NCBI GenBank assembly: GCA_018303325.1 | Contig: JAGVYH010000048.1 | Location: 1 to 37,768, forward strand | DNA from: Candidatus Woesearchaeota archaeon | Lineage (GTDB): Archaea; Nanobdellota; Nanobdellia; Woesearchaeales; DSVV01 | Direction of reading: 5' to 3' | DNA length: 37,768 nucleotides | Shown here: positions 27,356 through 30,824 of the stretch, one piece after another | Layout of the letters: every line of letters starts with the position of its first letter | Numbering within the stretch: the stretch's first letter is position 1 | Notes under the pieces: generated by a model | Told to the model about the DNA's origin: nothing | The model's database searches: none | Seen by the model: the letters and a program-made list of their open reading frames with translations, nothing else | Program-made: the position numbers and the translations under genes

Positions 27356-27535
27356 GAGGGGATGCCGGAGTGGCCAAACGGGATAGACTCAAGGTATTTG
27401 GGTGCTGAGAGCTCTTTCAAGAGTGCGATGAAGAAACCAAATATAAGTCATCTATTGGCTTAGTGCCTACTAGGGTTCAAATGGTTAACGATGAAGTTCA
27501 ACTAAAGCGTTAGCTTGAATGTCCCTATCCCCTCA
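27356..27535 (+). tRNA. tRNA-Leu(CAA) with two introns: 27394-27449 (37/38) and 27482-27521 (59/60)
   Basis: Acceptor GAGGGGA/TCCCCTC; anticodon stem ATAGA/TCTAT with spliced loop CTCAAGA (anticodon 27390-27392); T-stem TAGGG/CCCTA with spliced loop TTCAAAT. BHB at both sites. Spliced length 84 nt. Confidence 0.88.
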
Positions 27536-27641
27536 GTTTATATTTCTCAAGATTAATTGCAAGGACATGTGTATAATATGAAAGTGGTATTGAACGAAGT
27601 GAAATACCACAGATGACATTTTCCGAGGTTTTGGCTTGCCC

Positions 27642-27731
27642 AAAAGCTCGCTTATTGCCTACTAGGGTTCGAATACTTAGCAACGAAGTCGATAAGGATT
27701 TCGTCGTAAGACGAATTTCCCTATCCCCTCA
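27642..27731 (+). tRNA. Orphan tRNA-Leu-like 3' half with a 59/60 intron (27674-27717)
   Basis: GCTTATTGCCTACTAGGGTTCGAA|intron|TCCCTATCCCCTCA matches the 3' half of the upstream tRNA-Leu. BHB TAGGG-TTCG-AAT.../...CGAA-TTT-CCCTA. No 5' half seen nearby. Confidence 0.6.
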
Positions 27732-27748
27732 GTTTTTATATGTTTCAT

Positions 27749-27880
27749 TCCTGGCATGTCCAACACGTTCACTATGATAAAACAGTTATTCGTTCTTCGC
27801 TATTTGTAATGAAAAACTAAAAACGAAGAACAAATAACTACTAATTATTCATGAGACGGTGGACTGCGTCCCAAGAACTG
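27749..27880 (-). repeat. Dispersed palindromic element, copy R4
   Basis: Minus strand: CAGTTCTTGGGACGCAGTCCACCGTCTCATGAATAA...ATCATAGTGAACGTGTTGGACATGCCAGG. Interior hairpin AGTTATTcGTTCTTCG/CGAAGAACaAATAACT. Confidence 0.75.
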
Positions 27881-27932
27881 ACTTAAAACAAAATAAAAGT
27901 ATTCTAAGAATAAAAATCTCAGCAAAACAGAA

Positions 27933-29909: not shown

Positions 29910-30824
29910 ATGCTTAAAAAAAAAGATATTATATCTATCAGTGATTTTACAAAAGAGGAAATACTTTACATCCTGAAGACAGCTGAAGAAATGAATAAAA
30001 AAGACTGCTCAGAGCTTTGTAAAGGAAAGATTTTGGCAACCTTATTCTTTGAGCCAAGCACAAGGACACGATTGAGTTTTGAAACCTCGATGAAAAGAAT
30101 GGGTGGTTCAGTGATAGGTTTCTCTGGAGAAGAATCAACTTCAAGATCCAAAGGCGAATCTTTATATGACACAATAAAAATTGTCGAAGGATATGCAGAT
30201 ATAGTGGTTATGCGCCATAAGGTTGACGGTTCAGCAAGATTAGCCGCAGAGGCTTCTAAAATTCCTATAATCAATGGTGGCGATGGCTCGAACCAGCATC
30301 CTACTCAAATGCTGCTTGACCTTTATACAATTAAACAATCACAGGGCAAACTTGAAAACTTAAAAATAGCAATGGTGGGAGATTTAAAATACGGCAGAAC
30401 AGTTCATAGCTTGGCTGCTGCAATGGCAATGTTCAATGCTGAAATGTATTTTGTCGCGCCTGAGCAGCTTCAAATGCCGAATTATATCATTGAAGATTTG
30501 CAAAAGAGTAATATTAATTATCATATTGTTGACAATATGCAGGATGTTATTGGTAAAGTAGATATTCTTTACATGACTCGAATACAAAAAGAAAGGTTTC
30601 CTGATTTGCAGGAATATGAAAAAGTCAAAAATGTGTTTATCTTAAACAAAAAACTTTTAGAAACAGCTAAACCAAATATGAAAATCATGCATCCTCTGCC
30701 GAGGGTCAATGAAATCTCCGAAGAAGTTGATATTGAACCGCATGCATATTATTTTAATCAGGCGCATTATGGGATTCCAGTCAGAATGGCAATAATTGCC
30801 TTGCTTTTGGGGTGTGTCAAATGA
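29910..30824 (+). CDS. pyrB: Aspartate carbamoyltransferase catalytic subunit
   Basis: FFEPSTRTRLSFETSMKRMGG...GDGSNQHPTQMLLDLYTI...HPLPRVNEIS. Confidence 0.95.
   Translation: MLKKKDIISISDFTKEEILYILKTAEEMNKKDCSELCKGKILATLFFEPSTRTRLSFETSMKRMGGSVIGFSGEESTSRSKGESLYDTIKIVEGYADIVVMRHKVDGSARLAAEASKIPIINGGDGSNQHPTQMLLDLYTIKQSQGKLENLKIAMVGDLKYGRTVHSLAAAMAMFNAEMYFVAPEQLQMPNYIIEDLQKSNINYHIVDNMQDVIGKVDILYMTRIQKERFPDLQEYEKVKNVFILNKKLLETAKPNMKIMHPLPRVNEISEEVDIEPHAYYFNQAHYGIPVRMAIIALLLGCVK

Follow-up and report, generated by a model that had tools for sequence, protein, structure and literature searches.

A complete tRNA-Leu gene in the window, a 37,768-nt stretch of a Candidatus Woesearchaeota archaeon genome (contig JAGVYH010000048.1, assembly GCA_018303325.1), is followed by an orphan second copy of its own 3' half. 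We found that this orphan half and the gene's own end form a direct repeat around a short, covarying two-hairpin element, and that many other tRNA genes, as well as some protein genes, have the same arrangement at one of their ends. Judged by their sequences, the protein-gene copies resemble coding alleles rather than decayed duplicates; at one locus the two arms form a native/foreign mosaic of the kind that a single crossover would leave, and at two more it is the distal flank that resembles the sister genome. The explanation that we favor, as the probable though far from certain one, is that the element swaps gene ends, joining at tRNA-Leu by a single crossover.

At the window locus (Table 1), the tRNA-Leu reads as having a CAA anticodon and introns in both the anticodon loop and the T-loop; the T-loop intron (type A) has a relative in the tRNA-Leu of a second species of the genus (G001, the window's own genome being G000). 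The initial annotation had described, from 27642 to 27731, a second tRNA-Leu 3' half with its own T-loop intron, and we confirmed this half, whose 44-nt intron (type B) differs from the 40-nt intron of the tRNA-Leu. Its end was placed correctly, but the copy begins at 27651, and positions 27642–27650 belong to the preceding hairpin. The half is laid out as GCCTACTAGGGTTCGAA, the 44-nt intron and TCCCTATCCCCTCA, with exons at 27651–27673 and 27718–27731; it carries a 24-nt direct repeat (score 18) of positions 27460–27483, and its final 14 nt are identical to those of the tRNA-Leu. The bulge-helix-bulge (BHB) motif can be drawn intact by hand for both T-loop introns, with the compensated change from TTCA/TGAA to TTCG/CGAA that had been noticed before, and in another family (G024) a complete tRNA has a T-loop intron that matches type B at 93%. 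The TTTTGG/CCAAAA hairpin reported ahead of the half is likewise real; what had been missed is its context, as hairpin 2 of the recurring element. The window copy of this element scores 91.5 bits (E = 2.8e-15) against our covariance model, R1, whose alignment includes that copy itself, and its DNA fold has a z-score of −5.1. On contig C65 of the same genome, a tRNA-Leu that itself has no T-loop intron shows the same arrangement twice in tandem. Because the same pair recurs on C65 and the stretch before the half belongs to a repeat family, the window arrangement is not a product of chance. Within the window, ARAGORN found neither the tRNA-Leu nor the distal half, Rfam gave no match above its gathering score, and Pfam gave nothing for the two open reading frames flanking the locus.

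An alignment of 11 copies of the element predicts two hairpins, in which 11 of 20 pairs are changed on both sides yet kept in at least one copy. R1 matched the window's genome 20 times (read at E up to 0.34), and 19 of these matches lie at gene ends. Fifteen come after the 3' end of a tRNA (two of them running into a contig end), three are outside tRNA 5' ends and point away from the gene, and one comes after the SRP54 gene; the last match is a remnant. A contig break seems to have divided a single copy into two of the 5' matches. The presence of SRP54, like that of the BHB introns, marks the host as an archaeon. In most cases the element is followed by a copy of the adjoining gene's own end, which behind tRNA genes is the 3' end of that particular tRNA; that end copies also follow many tRNAs other than this one is a point absent from the initial annotation. 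Across the order, 48 of 353 genomes hold a match at E up to 1e-3, some of them probably spurious, and all 22 positive genomes in a phylum-wide sample fall within this same order. Matches inside RNase P RNA (G285:C95, G286:C1), inside 16S rRNA (G121) and, by eye, before start codons (G066, G122, G153) are probably spurious or something different. At its apex, hairpin 1 has tandem GA/GA and a two-base stem that closes a three-base loop; of 90 copies, 41 fit this model, and among the 41, GA/GA is present in 40 and a GNA loop in 27. The apex is reminiscent of GCGNAGC-type DNA mini-hairpins, which are very stable, a likeness that gives a bare hint of a role as single-stranded DNA.

When the sequence after hairpin 2 was compared with the upstream gene, a direct repeat (score of at least 15) was present at 37 of 90 copies; cross-genome pairings, used as controls, gave one in 12 of 1853 (0.6%), and some of these pairings probably match orthologous genes. 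For 36 of the 37 repeats, the beginning of the copy is no more than 10 nt from hairpin 2; the repeats are 16–75 nt long, the search having stopped at 75. Named by reading terminal sequence rather than by profile searches, the repeat-bearing genes are mostly tRNAs; others include SRP54 in three lineages, a membrane-protein-like gene (G292, G305, G219) and a gene adjoining RNase P RNA (G332). In two cases it is the 5' end of a protein gene that is copied (G206, and G239, read as a NusG/Spt5 start). As a separate observation, the distal SRP54 copy is interrupted at the same place in both species of the window's genus (L091, G000:C3; L130, G001:C143) by an AT-rich stretch of ~80 nt with two hairpins.

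A dead duplicate would show mostly nonsynonymous changes. Between the 3' ends of protein genes and their copies, we counted 23 synonymous and 5 nonsynonymous codon changes (23 of 28), a count that leaves out G206 and G239, where 5' ends were misread as 3' ends (24:9 with them), and the stop codon is kept wherever a copy extends to it. The mostly synonymous pattern thus argues that both gene ends were functional at some time. Among tRNA copies, that of G336 differs in the T-stem with pairing intact, and the two tRNA-Leu arms of the window have different introns, both intact. The compensated base pair is likely a sign of two once-functional ends, and the initial annotation was right that the half is not a dead duplicate, albeit for another reason: it looks like an alternative, once-functional 3' end. 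Retrocopying of a modified tRNA was rejected as a source of such copies; reading of A as T at position 57, as at a methylated base, would account for the copies in the window's genome, but in G351, G295 and G002 the change at this position is from A to G.

In G007 the element follows a gene that has no element in G002, a genome of the same genus. The two arms in G007 differ at 8 sites; it is the proximal arm that matches G002 in the first half of these and the distal arm in the second half (PPPPDDDD), an order that is 1 of 70 given four of each. This is the order expected from a single crossover, which would leave, in turn, a native 5' part, a foreign 3' end, the element, a foreign start and the native 3' end. 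The distal flank in G286 and G332 runs on as it does in the sister genome, unlike the proximal flank, and at a tRNA-Leu locus of G001 the intron of the distal copy combines types A and B as a mosaic. Several units are common to G000 and G001. One unit, single in G001, is doubled in G000, as recombination between the repeats would explain; G001 lacks another unit, and at one shared locus the two species differ in the type of hairpin 1.

Under gene-end swapping, the moving unit would comprise the two hairpins (~75 nt) and the 3' end of the target gene, and would join by a single crossover within the gene end that the two share. The product would be a gene with a foreign 3' end, followed by the hairpins and then by the displaced native 3' end, which is the orphan half. 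The moving form may be a small circular or single-stranded DNA on which a recombinase acts in trans; the window locus would have the same polarity as the mosaic locus, and its orphan half would be without present function. Action in trans is possible because tyrosine recombinases are common in the order: a search with the general family PF00589 found one in 303 of 353 genomes, a frequency that also makes association of the element with these enzymes uninformative. A larger, cargo-bearing parent form was considered and rejected, since none appeared in 20 loci with up to ~10 kb upstream; the units, of ~100–320 nt, hold no integrase gene or cargo between the repeats, and no significant element lay within 1.5 kb of 30 integrase genes in ten positive genomes.

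Several observations weigh against gene-end swapping. No repeat was detected at 53 of the 90 R1 matches, some being in introns and some at contig ends, and some of these matches are probably unrelated to the element. Many copies do not differ at all from the gene end, which makes them uninformative, and the mosaic is known from one locus only. In the case of tRNA-Ser, it is the proximal flank that looks like the sister genome lacking the unit; this is easier to reconcile with target duplication, or else with later loss from the sister. Neither a recombinase for the element nor a free form or larger parent was found in the 20 loci and 30 integrase neighborhoods, and a circle of 100–200 bp would be unusually small.

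Target duplication is the core of a competing account that we regard as unlikely, in which a miniature transposon inserts just outside gene ends and duplicates its target through staggered cuts of ~15–45 nt, in the style of a Cas1-like integrase, and gene conversion later mixes the arms. The distal copy would then be a duplicate of the native gene end. This account agrees with the direct repeats that flank the element, with the native-looking proximal flank at tRNA-Ser and with the identity of several repeats (including those of 35 nt in G177 and 45 nt in G332). The duplication is not, however, constant in length; the mostly synonymous differences and the ordered mosaic need extra steps; and insertion at gene ends only is left without an explanation. 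No terminal inverted repeats were evident on reading, a point on which no systematic search was made.

It is less probable still that the hairpins cause replication or repair to stall and to jump back to the gene end as template, yielding a tandem copy, with recombination between repeats altering the copy number. The hairpins do lie exactly at the junction with the copy, and tandem doubling occurs at C25 and C65, but neither the spread of one hairpin family to many unrelated gene ends nor the foreign gene ends are explained in this way. We give very little credence to the idea that the hairpins and gene-end copy form a functional RNA, such as a 3' trailer in tRNA processing or an integrase decoy: the paired structure is conserved and is kept between sister species at several loci, yet units outside tRNA 5' ends point away from the gene and others stand at protein genes, so that there is no common transcript orientation, and the unit is lost or absent at one orthologous tRNA.

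The initial annotation had offered three readings of the orphan half. The first, the 3' part of a trans-spliced split tRNA-Leu, is almost certainly wrong: although the T-arm and BHB intron are intact and the UAA and CAG isoacceptors of Leu were not seen in the assembly (1.97 Mb, 91.7% complete), a genome-wide search with a Leu D-arm pattern (one mismatch allowed) gave three matches, on contigs C32, C38 and C65, all complete tRNAs in which each 5' half has its own 3' half, leaving no spare one; the leader of the half, where pairing with a complementary trailer had been envisaged, is a genome-wide repeat common to other genes rather than a Leu-specific partner; and comparable halves follow many other tRNAs and protein genes. 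Splicing of the upstream T-loop into the distal copy through a BHB was also rejected, as drawing by hand yielded no central helix at the GTGG-type junctions. The second reading, an integration-scar duplicate, came close; the half is not the scar of an ordinary integrated plasmid but the distal direct repeat of a short hairpin element. Decay, the third, may be the present fate of the half.

Archaeal tRNA-targeted integrative elements carry tyrosine recombinases of the SSV, pNOB8, pTN3 and pT26-2 types; archaeal integrases use tRNA 3' ends with various inner limits, the pTN3 group uses 5' halves, and one archaeal integrase recombines with low specificity (PMC8371274). As in these elements, which supply the replacement gene end, the units described here have tRNA-end direct repeats at their borders, and the gene end is repeated at both borders as in attL/attR; unlike them, they are ~100–300 nt long, have a conserved hairpin pair and no integrase gene, and occur at many tRNAs and protein genes of one genome. 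For a disrupted tRNA-Thr in a Caldiarchaeum population, Sugahara et al. (2012) proposed a mobile element as the source of a tRNA fragment and an intron (PMC3293823). There too the fragment is a direct repeat beside an intact tRNA, with an intron change, but that case involves one locus, a 1.9-kb insertion, a putative recombinase gene and a 5' fragment, whereas the present family is a gene-free hairpin element at many loci. Archaea are also reported to carry integron attC sites and cassettes (PMC9668308). Unlike integrons, the units described here have no gene cassettes, and gene-end repeats take the place of attI insertion. The analogy lies in the attC sites, which are conserved in hairpin structure rather than sequence and form tandem arrays. 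Rickettsia palindromic elements and the E. coli tyrT repeats are small hairpin repeats in or beside genes, the latter containing a tRNA 3' end; to our knowledge, neither brings gene-specific foreign ends to many unrelated genes. A literature search, mostly outside subscription papers, found elements of the present kind nowhere described. In its outcome the family resembles known tRNA-targeted integration, from which it is set apart by size, hairpins, lack of genes and number of targets, and there is a fair chance that it constitutes a new class.

The element also lies within apparent tRNA introns, in the T-loop or the anticodon loop, with borders set by hand (G262 twice, G252, G291, G019, G250 and G305). 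These intronic elements are in reverse orientation to the tRNA and have no direct repeat, and the T-loop BHB in G262 is fully drawable. The T-loop and anticodon-loop introns share the standard motif of archaeal BHB tRNA introns, and some of them contain the element. The element occurs, then, both beside gene ends and in tRNA introns, which by hand read as spliced; we know of no described case in which intron and gene-end insertion share one element. A bolder proposal, which we consider possible but doubtful, is a new mobile class of gene-free cassettes of ~100–200 nt, each with the end of one conserved gene (tRNA, SRP54, others), which would probably move as single-stranded hairpin DNA, swap gene ends and become spliced introns when landing in a tRNA loop. 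Such a class would offer a route for tRNA intron gain. If gene-end swapping is right, essential genes of different archaeal species have been trading ends through a tiny noncoding family, which also accounts for tRNA half-copies that might otherwise pass for split tRNAs. With the element inside BHB tRNA introns, and with sister genomes that have and lack it, the origin of archaeal tRNA introns becomes directly testable.

Two further observations concern tRNA introns. Two tRNAs of G001 (L206, L210) have an extra stretch in the anticodon region that their G000 counterparts (L006, L007) do not; it is probably an intron, which would mean recent gain or loss. T-loop introns related to that of the orphan half are found in other isotypes of other families (L054 in G024, L055 in G159, L065 in G025), which suggests transfer between tRNA genes.

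Table 1. Features of the tRNA-Leu locus in the window.
Feature	Position	Strand	Basis
Complete tRNA-Leu, the gene with the duplicated end	27356..27535	+	Sequence; folds to a tRNA with extensions; spliced T-loop TTCAAAT
T-loop intron type A of the tRNA-Leu, 40 nt	27482..27521	+	BHB read from sequence
Spacer between tRNA-Leu end and element, 43 nt	27536..27578	+	Sequence
Two-hairpin element, 72 nt, one member of the repeat family	27579..27650	+	Model R1 match, fold, covariation
Hairpin 1, GTGGTATT / AATACCAC, apex a tandem GA/GA with a three-base loop	27584..27610	+	
Hairpin 2, CGAG-G-TTTTGG / CCAAAA-G-CTCG	27624..27650	+	
Second 3' end of the tRNA-Leu, distal to the element and starting at the variable arm (orphan 3' half)	27651..27731	+	
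T-loop intron type B of the distal copy, 44 nt	27674..27717	+	

A mirror image of the 3'-end arrangement occurs at a minus-strand tRNA of the window's genome (L016; G000:C12, 14930–15023), whose first 28 nt are copied outside its 5' end behind two hairpins that have no R1 match. Copies of tRNA 5' ends also lie upstream of the gene at L018 and L021 (tRNA-Ser, G000:C62 and C46), L208 (G001), L063 (G139) and L055 (G159); after the copy, the tRNA-Ser genes and L063 have a hairpin and sequence that is complementary to the acceptor 5' strand. In three genomes of one genus (G153, G122, G066), repeated hairpins stand just before the start codons of several genes (L123, L124, L142, L152, L154, L164), among them ribosomal protein S12 as read from sequence, and are possibly a distinct 5'-leader element.

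Elsewhere in the window, positions 29910–30824 encode an aspartate carbamoyltransferase. In a search of the genome collection that may omit near relatives of the window, its relatives were all bacterial (Patescibacteria, Prevotellaceae; 50–56% identity), and horizontal transfer is a possible explanation. A second repeat family is represented just after the orphan half, at 27745–27882 (TTCCTGGCATGTCCAAC ... CATGAGACGGTGGACTGCGTCCCA); other copies of it stand behind several more tRNA loci of the genome, and a related stretch has ~25 matches in G001.
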